From: Lachnospiraceae bacterium
GTDB taxonomy: Bacteria; Bacillota; Clostridia; Lachnospirales; Lachnospiraceae
Assembly (NCBI GenBank): GCA_017442585.1
Contig: JAFRZM010000036.1
Coordinates: 1 to 54,455, forward strand
Reading direction: 5' to 3'
DNA length: 54,455 bases
Shown: positions 1,013-4,022 of the stretch, one piece after another
Layout: every line of letters starts with the position of its first letter
How positions within the stretch are numbered: position 1 is the first letter of the stretch
Notes under the pieces: model-generated
What the model was told of the DNA's origin: nothing
Databases searched by the model: none
Seen by the model: the letters and a program-made list of their open reading frames with translations, nothing else
Translations under genes and position numbers: made by a program

Positions 1013-1303
1013 ATGGTTAAGGACTTAGAAACCGAACTTTATGACTTGGCCGAACTTTTCAAAGTGTTCGGCGACTCGACCAGAATTAAGATACTTTATG
1101 CCCTTTTTGAAAATAAGATGTGCGTGGGAGATCTGGCAGAATCACTTAATATGACGCAATCTGCAATCTCTCATCAGCTTAAGATATTAAAGCAAAGCAA
1201 GCTGGTAAAGTGTGACCGCGAGGGCAAGCAGATAATGTATTACCTTGCGGATGCACATGTTAAAACAATAATAGACCAGGGAAAAGAGCATATTGAAGAG
1301 TAA
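1013..1303 (+). CDS. ArsR/SmtB-family metal-sensing repressor, zinc-type
   Basis: A 96-aa winged-helix repressor with the family core GDSTRIKIL, a recognition helix around SAISHQLKIL and the beta-wing CDREGKQIMYYL. The C-terminal helix carries D80, H82, H93 and E96. That spacing (D-x-H, then 11 and 3 residues on) equals the alpha-5 zinc site of SmtB (D104, H106, H117, E120, recalled from memory). The alpha-3 region reads MCVGDL, with one Cys instead of the CxC of ArsR/CadC. It should therefore sense zinc-like metals at the dimer interface and release the operator of the ATPase operon. It starts with ATG after AAAGGAGCAGGAA, 15 bases behind the pump gene, so the two are co-transcribed. Its last 11 bases overlap the next gene. 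Confidence 0.92.
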   Translation: MVKDLETELYDLAELFKVFGDSTRIKILYALFENKMCVGDLAESLNMTQSAISHQLKILKQSKLVKCDREGKQIMYYLADAHVKTIIDQGKEHIEE

Positions 1304-4022
1304 CTTATGTATGGGAATCTTGGCCCATGTTGACGCCGGTAAGACCACTCTTTCGGAGTGCCTCTTATATCATGCGGGTGTCATTAAGGAAATGGGCCGA
1401 GTGGATAAGAAGGATTCTTATCTCGACAATTTTGAGGCGGAACGGCGACGCGGTATAACGATATACGCAAAGCAGGCGAATATGACGTTAAACGGTCGCT
1501 CGTATACCTTACTTGATACACCGGGACATGTAGATTTTTCTCCGGAAACGGAGAGAGTGTTATCTGTCCTGGATTTTTGCGTACTTTTAATTAATGGTGC
1601 GTCGGGTGTGCAGTCGCATAGTAAGACGTTATGGTCGATGCTTGAACGTCTTCACGTTCCGACAATTATATTCGTAAATAAGATGGACCAGGACGGTACA
1701 GATGCAAAAGCCTTAAGAGACGAAATAAGAACTAATCTTTCAAGCGATGCGGAAACTTTATATGCACCGGCGGGCGACATAAGCGAAGCATTCTTTGAGA
1801 CATGTGCCCAGACGGATGAGAAATTGTTAAATGAGTATTTAATAAATGCAACATTGCCGAATGAAGTATTGCAGAAAGCATTTGCGGAGAGAAAAGTATT
1901 CCCTATTCTTTACGGCTCAGCTTTAAAGGATTCCGGTGTAGATAAGCTTATAGATGCAGTATCGTTTTTTGCCGAGGATAAAGAGTATCCTGTAACTTTC
2001 GGCGCTCGTGTATTTAAGATCACCCAGGATGCGGATGACGGTAGGCTTACCACTATGAAGGTGACCGGAGGCAGCCTTAAGATAAAGGATGTAATAAGCG
2101 GAATTGATAGAGAAGGCAATGAATATCAAGAAAAAGTAAATCGTCTTTATATTTTATCCGGTGATAAGAAAGAAGCAGTAAATGAAGTTTTAGCGGGACA
2201 GGTATGTTCGGTTGCAGGGTTAGAAAACACCTTTATCGGAGCAGGGCTTGGAACGGAAGAGAATCATTACGAAGAGATGATGGTTCCTGTAGTCACTTAC
2301 GCTGTTCATTATGAGTCAACGACAGATAAGGTTAAGATGTATTCGTATCTTAAATCCTTGGAAGAAGAAGAGCCTGCACTTCACGTAACCTTCGATGAAG
2401 AGACGGGTGAGATTAAGGTATCCCTTATGGGAGAAGTTCAAATAGAAATATTAAAAGAAGTTTTAAGAAATAGATTTTTGGTGAACGTAGACTTTACAGA
2501 AGGCCGTATTCTCTATCGTGAAACTATAGACGATAAGGTAGAGGGCGTAGGGCATTTTGAACCTTTACGTCATTATGCAGAAGTACATGTTTTAATAGAG
2601 CCTTTGGAACGTGGCAGTGGCATCGAGTATGATTCTATTGTTTCTACCGATGATCTTGCACAAAACTGGCAGAACTTAATTATGACCCATTTAAAAGAGA
2701 AGGTTCATAAAGGAGTTTTGACAGGAAGCCCGCTTACAGATGTTAAGTTTACGCTTTGTTCCGGCAAGGCTCATCTTAAGCATACTATGGGTGGCGATTT
2801 TAGGCAGGCGACTTATAGAGCGGTACGCCATGGACTTATGTATGCCAAAAGTAGGATATTAGAGCCGTACTTCAAGTTTGAGATAACTGTTCCTGATGAA
2901 AGAATAGGCCATGTAATGACTATGCTTACGGAACGCGCAGCTAAGTTTGAAGCACCGACATCCCGTAACGGGATGAGTACGATAGAGGGAACGGGCCCTG
3001 TAAGTACTTTGACCGGCTTTAAGATGGAGCTGAATAAGACTTGTGGTGGAAACGGGGATTTTGCAGCATCTGTTATAGGTTACTTTGATTGCCATAACGA
3101 AGAGGAAGTAATTGAACGTATTGGTTACGATCCGGAGCGCGATATGAGAAATCCTTCGGCATCAGTTTTTTGTCAGCATGGTGCGGGAACGAATATACCA
3201 TGGAATGAAGTGAAGGACTATATGCATCTTCCAATGTGTGAAGAGGGCGGATTAAAAGAGCCTGAAGTTATACGTACTATAAGACAGGAAGAGAATAAGC
3301 TTTCGCCTGAAGAGCAGGAAAAAGAATTAAAGTCGATATTTGAATCGACGTACGGAACCATAAAAACAAAATTCAATAGTGATTCATTGGAAAACGATAA
3401 TCTTAGATACGGTTGGAATGGAAGGCCTACACCTGTAAAAGAAAAGGGACCTGTACGTCGTGAAAAACCGGAAGATTATGACTACGATAAAGAACAGCGA
3501 CACAAACATGACGCAGCCTTAAAAAGTAATACGAAAAAGAATCGCTATCTTCTTGTCGATGGTTATAATGTAATATTTGCATGGAAAAGTCTGGCTGATA
3601 TCGTAAGTACCAATATGGATGGTGCGAGAGATGCTCTTGCCGAAATTTTATGTAATTACGGCGCATATACCGGAATGCATGTAATCTTGGTATTTGATGC
3701 TTATAAGTTAAAAGAGCATAAGACGGAAGTTTTAAAATACCGTAATATCCATATAGTATATACCGCAACTGCGGAGACGGCAGATCAATATATAGAAAAA
3801 TGTGCTTACTCCATGCGTGACGAGCATGATGTAACCTGTGTTACGTCGGATGGCCTTGAGCAGGTTATTATCATCGGAAGCGGATGCAATCTTATTTCTT
3901 CGCGCGAATTCGAGAAAGAAACGAAGCGCATAAGTAATGAGATAAACGATGATCATATTGCGTTAAAAGCCGATACCGGATCAATAAAAGAAAAGTTGAA
4001 AATTCCACGAGATATGCTATAA
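1293..4022 (+). CDS. TetM/EF-G-like translation GTPase fused to a C-terminal Rae1/YacP-type NYN nuclease domain
   Basis: 909 aa. Residues 1 to about 650 form an elongation-factor-G-like GTPase of the TetM/TetO ribosomal-protection branch: G1 AHVDAGKTT (11-19), RRRGIT (51-56), DTPGHVDF (75-82), NKMD (129-132), then EF-G-like domains II-V. A charged linker (about 690-748) leads to an NYN/PIN-fold domain (about 750-890) with VDGYN (D756), VFDA (D802), ETAD (D831) and TSD (D853). This is the signature of YacP/Rae1, the B. subtilis ribosome-associated A-site mRNA endonuclease (family knowledge). The domain IV tip reads KHTMGGDFR (496-504) and not the YSPVSTP-like tip of TetM, so tetracycline resistance is doubtful. 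Start: TTG at 1293 gives the family-like MKSNLCMGILAHVDAGKT; ATG 1311 is the alternative. It overlaps arsR by 11 bases. I infer a ribosome-targeted, GTP-driven mRNA-cleaving or rescue factor. Confidence 0.88.
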   Translation: MKSNLCMGILAHVDAGKTTLSECLLYHAGVIKEMGRVDKKDSYLDNFEAERRRGITIYAKQANMTLNGRSYTLLDTPGHVDFSPETERVLSVLDFCVLLINGASGVQSHSKTLWSMLERLHVPTIIFVNKMDQDGTDAKALRDEIRTNLSSDAETLYAPAGDISEAFFETCAQTDEKLLNEYLINATLPNEVLQKAFAERKVFPILYGSALKDSGVDKLIDAVSFFAEDKEYPVTFGARVFKITQDADDGRLTTMKVTGGSLKIKDVISGIDREGNEYQEKVNRLYILSGDKKEAVNEVLAGQVCSVAGLENTFIGAGLGTEENHYEEMMVPVVTYAVHYESTTDKVKMYSYLKSLEEEEPALHVTFDEETGEIKVSLMGEVQIEILKEVLRNRFLVNVDFTEGRILYRETIDDKVEGVGHFEPLRHYAEVHVLIEPLERGSGIEYDSIVSTDDLAQNWQNLIMTHLKEKVHKGVLTGSPLTDVKFTLCSGKAHLKHTMGGDFRQATYRAVRHGLMYAKSRILEPYFKFEITVPDERIGHVMTMLTERAAKFEAPTSRNGMSTIEGTGPVSTLTGFKMELNKTCGGNGDFAASVIGYFDCHNEEEVIERIGYDPERDMRNPSASVFCQHGAGTNIPWNEVKDYMHLPMCEEGGLKEPEVIRTIRQEENKLSPEEQEKELKSIFESTYGTIKTKFNSDSLENDNLRYGWNGRPTPVKEKGPVRREKPEDYDYDKEQRHKHDAALKSNTKKNRYLLVDGYNVIFAWKSLADIVSTNMDGARDALAEILCNYGAYTGMHVILVFDAYKLKEHKTEVLKYRNIHIVYTATAETADQYIEKCAYSMRDEHDVTCVTSDGLEQVIIIGSGCNLISSREFEKETKRISNEINDDHIALKADTGSIKEKLKIPRDML

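Follow-up and report, generated by a model that had tools for sequence, protein, structure and literature searches.

A Tet-like translational GTPase fused to a Rae1/YacP-type NYN nuclease domain, a lineage gene of many Clostridia that seems to stand in for separate Rae1

The fused gene and its domain layout

The window, meaning the whole stretch of DNA analysed here (54,455 nucleotides from a Lachnospiraceae bacterium; assembly GCA_017442585.1, contig JAFRZM010000036.1), contains an open reading frame at 1293-4022 on the forward strand that was confirmed to encode a single polypeptide of 909 residues, in which an EF-G/Tet-type GTPase is followed by an NYN nuclease domain of the YacP/Rae1 type. 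The fusion is a lineage gene of many Clostridia, not a mobile resistance gene, and seems to have taken the place of the stand-alone Rae1/YacP nuclease. The features of the gene are as follows.

1293-4022, + strand: whole fused gene; 909 residues, TTG start, which agrees with the N-termini of relatives
1278-1282, + strand: AGGGA, a possible ribosome-binding site read from the sequence, 10 nt 5' of the TTG
1305-1967, + strand: G domain, residues 5-225 (Pfam GTP_EFTU, 2e-49; motifs AHVDAGKT, RGITI, DTPGHVDF, NKMD, SALK)
2001-2243, + strand: EF-G domain II, residues 237-317 (Pfam EF-G_D2)
2286-2498, + strand: EF-G domain III, residues 332-402 (Pfam EFG_III)
2502-2846, + strand: EF-G domain IV, residues 404-518 (Pfam EFG_IV), the best-conserved domain of the fused family
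2772-2804, + strand: domain IV tip, H494-L-K496-H497-T498-M-G500-G501-D502-F503-R504, the subfamily hallmark; TetM has YSPVSTPADFR there
2853-3101, + strand: EF-G domain V, residues 521-603 (Pfam EFG_C)
3090-3227, + strand: C-terminal extension of the GTPase, C600..N602..Y612..D617..S624-x-F626-C627..G630..W637, common to unfused members
3237-3542, + strand: charged, unconserved linker, residues 649-750 (23% mean pairwise identity)
3549-3980, + strand: NYN_YacP (Rae1-type) nuclease domain, residues 753-896, with D756, N759, D802, D831 and D853
3909-4019, + strand: C-terminal tail, degenerate here; in most stand-alone Rae1 proteins the end is LEKxR-like

The presence of the G1-G5 motifs and of domains II-V makes the N-terminal half a translational GTPase of the EF-G/Tet group, and the whole 909-residue protein retrieved EF-G and Tet structures in a structure-database search. 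The original prediction, made from the sequence without database searches, had placed an EF-G/TetM-like GTPase here, and the full Pfam domain set and intact G motifs bear it out. Unfused members of the same GTPase subfamily terminate at about residue 646.

Directly upstream, 137-1303 contains part of a gene for a P-type ATPase-like HAD protein (assigned to HAD by Pfam, to the ATPases by eye) and a gene for an ArsR-family regulator; the regulator gene overlaps the fused gene by 11 bases.

An intact nuclease active site and a degenerate tail

The C-terminal domain matched Pfam NYN_YacP (PF05991) over residues 753-896 with E = 1.5e-44 (152 bits, against a curated cut-off of 24.6) and, searched alone, matched the YacP crystal structures 5MQ8 and 5MQ9 at ~1.6e-21, with LLVDGYN, VFDA, ETAD and TSD in register. 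Residue conservation was scored in 126 distinct fusions, comprising the window protein, the fusions met in the surveys described below and the 80 best-scoring named loci, which bias the set to good matches. D756, N759, D802 and D831 were kept in 126/126, and D853 in 125/126, the sole exception being a gap in a truncated copy; the earlier assignment of a YacP/Rae1-type domain with D756, D802, D831 and D853 therefore holds. Judged by these residues, the fusion has an intact Rae1/YacP active site. It belongs to the same NYN family and has the same catalytic residues as Rae1/YacP of Bacillus subtilis (5MQ8, 5MQ9; PF05991), so that action on ribosomal mRNA would be expected; according to the passages available from PMC10100781 and PMC12320835, the activity of Rae1 depends on translation and is directed at A-site mRNA.

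Unlike B. subtilis Rae1, the domain in the window lies behind a translational GTPase, and fused domains have mostly lost an LEKxR-like tail, a mark noticed in this analysis and not a published one. The strict form of this tail was found in 14/22 stand-alone and 2/125 fused domains, rows that are related by descent, and a looser form in 19/22 stand-alone domains (last 20 residues) against 26/125 fused ones (last 24 residues); in the window protein it is degenerate. An arginine at position 867 is likewise present in 22/22 stand-alone but 73/125 fused domains. The net charge of the NYN core showed no clear difference (-3.4 in fused domains, -1.5 in stand-alone domains of the same family, -4.1 in other stand-alone domains). 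A simple reading of the tail loss is that the GTPase perhaps took over part of the tail's role, possibly ribosome contact.

A GTPase subfamily apart from Tet proteins and EF-G

Two sequence marks, a domain IV tip of the form HxKHTxGGDFRxA..RA.R and a C-terminal Y..D..SxFC..G..W motif, occur in 48 fused and 25 unfused rows and are both absent from TetM, TetO, an OtrA-like protein and EF-G. The window protein carries both. Its KHTMGGDFR (496-504) occupies the place of the TetM YSPVSTPADFR-type loop, as had been predicted, and is typical of the subfamily, not a quirk of one sequence. Near-full matches to the subfamily model scored 682-1187 bits, as against 355-487 for Tet-type proteins, in which the C-terminal part was unmatched; one protein, L209, is intermediate (528 bits, tip present, C-terminal motif absent). 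With the NCBIfam model tet_protect the window protein scored 418 bits, under the curated cut-off of 775, whereas the TetM control scored 876; this score and the replaced loop agree with the earlier suspicion that a tetracycline-resistance label would mislead.

The GTPase resembles Tet(M) and Tet(O) in its set of five EF-G-like domains and in the DFR at the tip of domain IV, but has 28% identity to them, HxKHTxGGDFR in place of YSPVSTPADFR, an extra C-terminal motif, a score below the model cut-off and a separate clade. With EF-G it has in common domains G to V and a domain IV of the A-site-reaching kind, H494 of the window protein aligning with the EF-G tip histidine; identity is 25-29%, and the window genome has its own EF-G plus a second EF-G-like frame. 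The NCBI 'translation factor GTPase family protein' entries (e.g. WP_320690501.1) are annotated relatives of the same architecture as the fusion.

The GTPase residues examined were also well kept: among the 126 fusions D38, D75, K130 and D132 were found in 126, D14, K17 and H79 in 125 and T18 in 124, and position 57 is I in 121 and V in the rest. Mean pairwise identity was 72% in domain IV (82% in the tip), 58% in the NYN core, 57% in domain II, 56% in the G domain, 49% in domains III and V and 23% in the linker, whose length ranges from 63 to 206 residues (median 80). The charged linker that had been described is present, but its sequence is not conserved, and by these measures both halves of the fusion are under constraint.

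A plasmid of Ligilactobacillus salivarius (L112, 3995-5914) carries an unfused subfamily GTPase near rpsN that is annotated as a TetM/TetW/TetO/TetS family resistance protein, likely a mislabelling because it scores 378 against the cut-off of 775.

Distribution of the fusion

The surveyed genomes were drawn evenly and many are drafts; the survey of Lachnospiraceae, the family of the window, took one genome per genus. In that family NYN_YacP was found in 135/150 genera, and in 119 of those 135 it lay in a frame of at least 780 residues. Twenty genes from eleven families, selected for long frames, were fetched with their context, and all 20 encode the entire two-part protein, which argues that the fusion is not a chance one.

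Across the class, NYN_YacP was present in 189/291 genomes among the matches listed. Counting as fused a genome that has an NYN match and whose subfamily GTPase match lies in a frame of at least 780 residues, 100/291 genomes had the fusion among the matches listed, which answers the call of the original prediction for a survey of Clostridia. Four GTPase candidates per genome were scored in full class-wide and three in the phylum-wide survey, so that a second member of the subfamily could have escaped notice. The phylum-wide survey gave a GTPase-model match at 1e-90 or better in 39/398 genomes, Tet-type genes included, and long-frame members in six further families. A pattern scan of named species genomes returned at least 590 relatives among 599 stretches. 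The best 80 of these were all long frames, as expected with a query that is itself fused, and include Intestinimonas butyriciproducens, Butyrivibrio, Anaerovorax odorimutans, Fusibacter and Ruminococcus flavefaciens. Among 72,556 plasmid records, 2 cover at least 80% of the fusion in one place; one that was opened is a 518-kb Monoglobus record with secA.

Two records deserve separate mention. One labelled Bacteriophage sp., from human faeces (L292; MT835514.1, 13358-21795), contains an 890-residue frame of the fusion (1224 bits) and is probably host DNA. In genome G130 (contig 47; L121/L178), a fused frame of 1095 residues has its NYN match in two pieces, as if something had been inserted.

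Phylogeny and origin

Trees were built quickly, with Shimodaira-Hasegawa-like approximate likelihood-ratio test (SH-aLRT) values as the only support. In a tree of 83 GTPases the subfamily, L209 included, stood apart from Tet proteins and EF-G (SH-aLRT 98). Fused rows formed one clade (SH-aLRT 100) with unfused rows outside it, except for the L. salivarius protein and a broken gene, which fell inside. A follow-up tree, again with the fused rows in one clade, and an approximately unbiased (AU) test left out 14 of the 83 rows (near-copies, broken or long-branched). The AU test did not reject a placement of the unfused L. salivarius protein outside the fused clade (p = 0.38); its position inside is not firm, and it may or may not have lost an NYN domain secondarily. 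The fused NYN domains, for their part, clustered with the stand-alone yacP products of Lachnospiraceae (SH-aLRT 99). We read this as a single fusion, in which a clostridial yacP would have been joined to the natural C-terminus of a subfamily GTPase.

Apparent replacement of stand-alone Rae1/YacP

The sole NYN_YacP match in the window genome (92% complete) is the fusion itself. The same holds for 96 of the 100 fused genomes of the class, which have a single NYN_YacP match among the matches listed; of the remaining four, one carries a pair of long-frame copies, and in the other three the frame of a second NYN match is not among the matches listed. The original prediction had asked whether a separate yacP is missing, and in the window genome and in those 96/100 genomes no second NYN_YacP match was found.

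Gene context agrees. Stand-alone yacP lies mostly in an order that we take, after B. subtilis, to be cysS-mrnC-rlmB-yacP-sigma, with Pfam support for a Cys-tRNA synthetase, an RNase III domain, a SpoU methylase and a sigma-70 factor; rlmB is just upstream in 16/20 loci and the sigma-factor gene downstream in 14/20. In the fused genomes mrnC was located in 20/20, and none of the 20 fetched pieces has a yacP in the mrnC region, which sets them apart from the mrnC-rlmB-sigma operon of B. subtilis. The slot itself is visible in the 11 of 20 pieces that include both rlmB and the sigma-factor gene, the window genome among them, and a yacP lies between the two in 0/11; in the window genome rlmB runs directly into the sigma-factor gene. 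The fusion seems, then, to have taken the place of stand-alone Rae1. For stand-alone yacP genes of the same family, rlmB is just upstream in 5/8 loci but not in G391, G059 and G020, so that some of these could be re-split or moved genes.

Three genomes (G285, G350 and G390; f29) carry the fusion and a second NYN_YacP match, and may offer a comparison of fused and other Rae1 in one cell.

Co-occurrence and gene neighbourhood

The co-occurrence tables cover 283 genomes, after removal of eight whose GTPase matches were fragmentary (G372, G200, G280, G329, G288, G363, G385 and G317). None of the 283 had both a fused and an unfused member of the subfamily (100 fused, 15 unfused; 5.3 expected; P = 0.001, uncorrected for descent), and this mutual exclusion suggests that the two forms do related jobs. 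In Lachnospiraceae an unfused GTPase was present in 6/8 examined genomes with stand-alone NYN and in 0/15 NYN-less ones (Fisher p = 0.0003, uncorrected for descent); one of the six, G099, is a partial match with a stop, and G016, with a frame of stand-alone size, is not in the set. As the association is strong in Lachnospiraceae and absent class-wide, it was set aside as main evidence.

In 3/20 fused loci (L062, L070 and L071), two of which are close relatives, the next gene downstream of the fusion encodes a dihydrouridine synthase and has the same orientation. Terminator-like hairpins occurred in 24/93 upstream regions (350 nt) of fused genes, compared with 5.0 in simple shuffles, at scattered distances; as attenuators they were discarded, being indistinguishable from terminators of upstream genes.

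Possible function

EF-G and TetM enter the ribosomal A site, and domain IV of EF-G reaches the decoding centre. Taken with the action described for Rae1, this makes mRNA cleavage on paused ribosomes the likeliest function, and we lean slightly toward the view that the fusion is a Rae1 substitute brought to the A site by its own GTPase, where it would cut mRNA on paused ribosomes. The GTP form would bind 70S ribosomes that are paused or stalled, with the A site open or blocked, and the conserved domain IV tip (H494/K496/H497...GGDFR) would enter the decoding centre, so that the site is held or cleared. Once GTP is hydrolysed or domain IV withdraws, the tethered NYN domain would cut the mRNA within the A site or immediately downstream of it, so that ribosome and mRNA could be recycled through trans-translation or decay. 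On this view the fusion would take on the work of Rae1 with its own active delivery, serving housekeeping or the response to stress and not drug resistance.

Several points weigh against this. In bound EF-G or TetM, domain IV itself occupies the decoding site, so that the NYN domain probably cannot share the A site with it simultaneously; a hand-over, or a cut just downstream, would be needed. The original prediction is thus partly supported: its domain identities and its doubt about the resistance label stand, but its picture of a nuclease placed in the A site by GTP-driven binding has to be corrected on this point. We infer the order of events, whether domain IV followed by NYN or NYN at the mRNA entry side. 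Two fusions from related genomes (L193 and L197; f144) have a degenerate tip (H497Y, D502A, F503L) yet an intact NYN active site, which is evidence against a strict need for the tip. The GTPase seems to have some job of its own, because 6/15 class genomes with an unfused copy have no NYN_YacP match and because unfused GTPase and stand-alone NYN show no association class-wide (9/6/74/94, p = 0.28). Loss of the Rae1 tail could equally be drift at a free end, and gene neighbourhood was rejected as a guide to function, the most-shared neighbour occurring in no more than 4/20 fused loci.

A more specific form of the proposal is a GTP-driven A-site cutter, in which the GTPase would evict or translocate an A-site blocker and a hydrolysis-triggered swing would hand the vacated decoding site to the tethered Rae1. 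We regard this as possible, though on the doubtful side. If true, one core factor of many Clostridia would sense the ribosome, clear its A site and cleave the mRNA, all coupled within the same cycle.

Alternatively, the chain might combine two separate enzymes, the NYN domain being a Rae1 that works by itself and the GTPase serving independently in elongation or stress, with fusion giving only co-expression or ribosome proximity. The unfused GTPases, including those in the 6/15 genomes with no NYN match, fit such independence, as do the long, unconserved linker and the two fusions with a degenerate tip but intact NYN. Retention of one fusion across many families does not, nor do the lack of a stand-alone yacP, the loss of the Rae1 tail in the fused form and the Lachnospiraceae co-occurrence of unfused GTPase and stand-alone NYN (6/8 against 0/15), and we consider this explanation improbable. 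Somewhat less probable again is a role in ribosome biogenesis or RNA maturation, the GTPase binding a ribosomal particle while the NYN domain trims rRNA or tRNA. Such maturation has been proposed for the YacP domain, as cited in the part of Atkinson 2015 (PMC4342817) at hand, and stand-alone yacP mostly sits beside mrnC, with its RNase III domain, and the SpoU methylase gene rlmB; a dihydrouridine synthase gene follows 3/20 fusions. Against this, the fused gene is no longer in the mrnC-rlmB operon, and Rae1, the sole studied homologue, reportedly cleaves the mRNA of translating ribosomes (passages of PMC10100781, PMC12320835).

Tetracycline ribosomal protection acting via RNase activity, suggested in 2015, is the least likely reading: the wording of Atkinson 2015 (PMC4342817, in the passage available), the nearness of Tet and EF-G as the closest known families and hairpins that could be attenuators but equally the ends of upstream genes (24/93 against 5.0) speak for it, and against it stand a score of 418 bits, far under the tet_protect cut-off of 775 (TetM 876), the replacement of the drug-dislodging loop by KHTMGGDFR, family-wide spread (119/135 NYN-bearing Lachnospiraceae genera), near-absence from plasmids (2/72,556 records with at least 80% cover) and the Tet-type gene, by score, that some fusion genomes carry in addition (e.g. 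G301, G197 and G394).

Relation to earlier work and significance

The existence of the fusion has been known since 2015. The passage of Atkinson 2015 (PMC4342817) available to us reports the acquisition of a YacP-like NYN RNase domain by the Tet proteins of ten Clostridiales species, suggests that this is perhaps a new route of antibiotic resistance, and states that the domain IV tip loops act in drug release. As far as that passage shows, those fusions have the same architecture as the window protein; where it speaks of ten species and resistance, the surveys given here point to a widespread lineage gene that apparently replaces Rae1, and the resistance reading is probably wrong. No later work on the fusion was recognised by title or start of abstract in a mostly open-access literature, and the main text of PMC8547433 has no passage on a YacP-like NYN domain. 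What the present analysis adds is the spread of the fusion, its origin in one event, its apparent substitution for Rae1, the placing of its GTPase in a subfamily apart and the loss of the tail; none of these was found in the limited literature that could be searched.

Genes of this kind are probably mislabelled when they are annotated as Tet-type resistance genes. To our knowledge, Rae1 is among the few bacterial endonucleases to which cleavage of mRNA in the ribosomal A site is ascribed. In a large share of the surveyed Clostridia this nuclease is tied to a GTPase of the A-site-entering type, and the separate form is apparently missing. With nuclease and GTPase on one chain, GTPase-gated mRNA cleavage is directly testable in these bacteria through single mutants in each active site.

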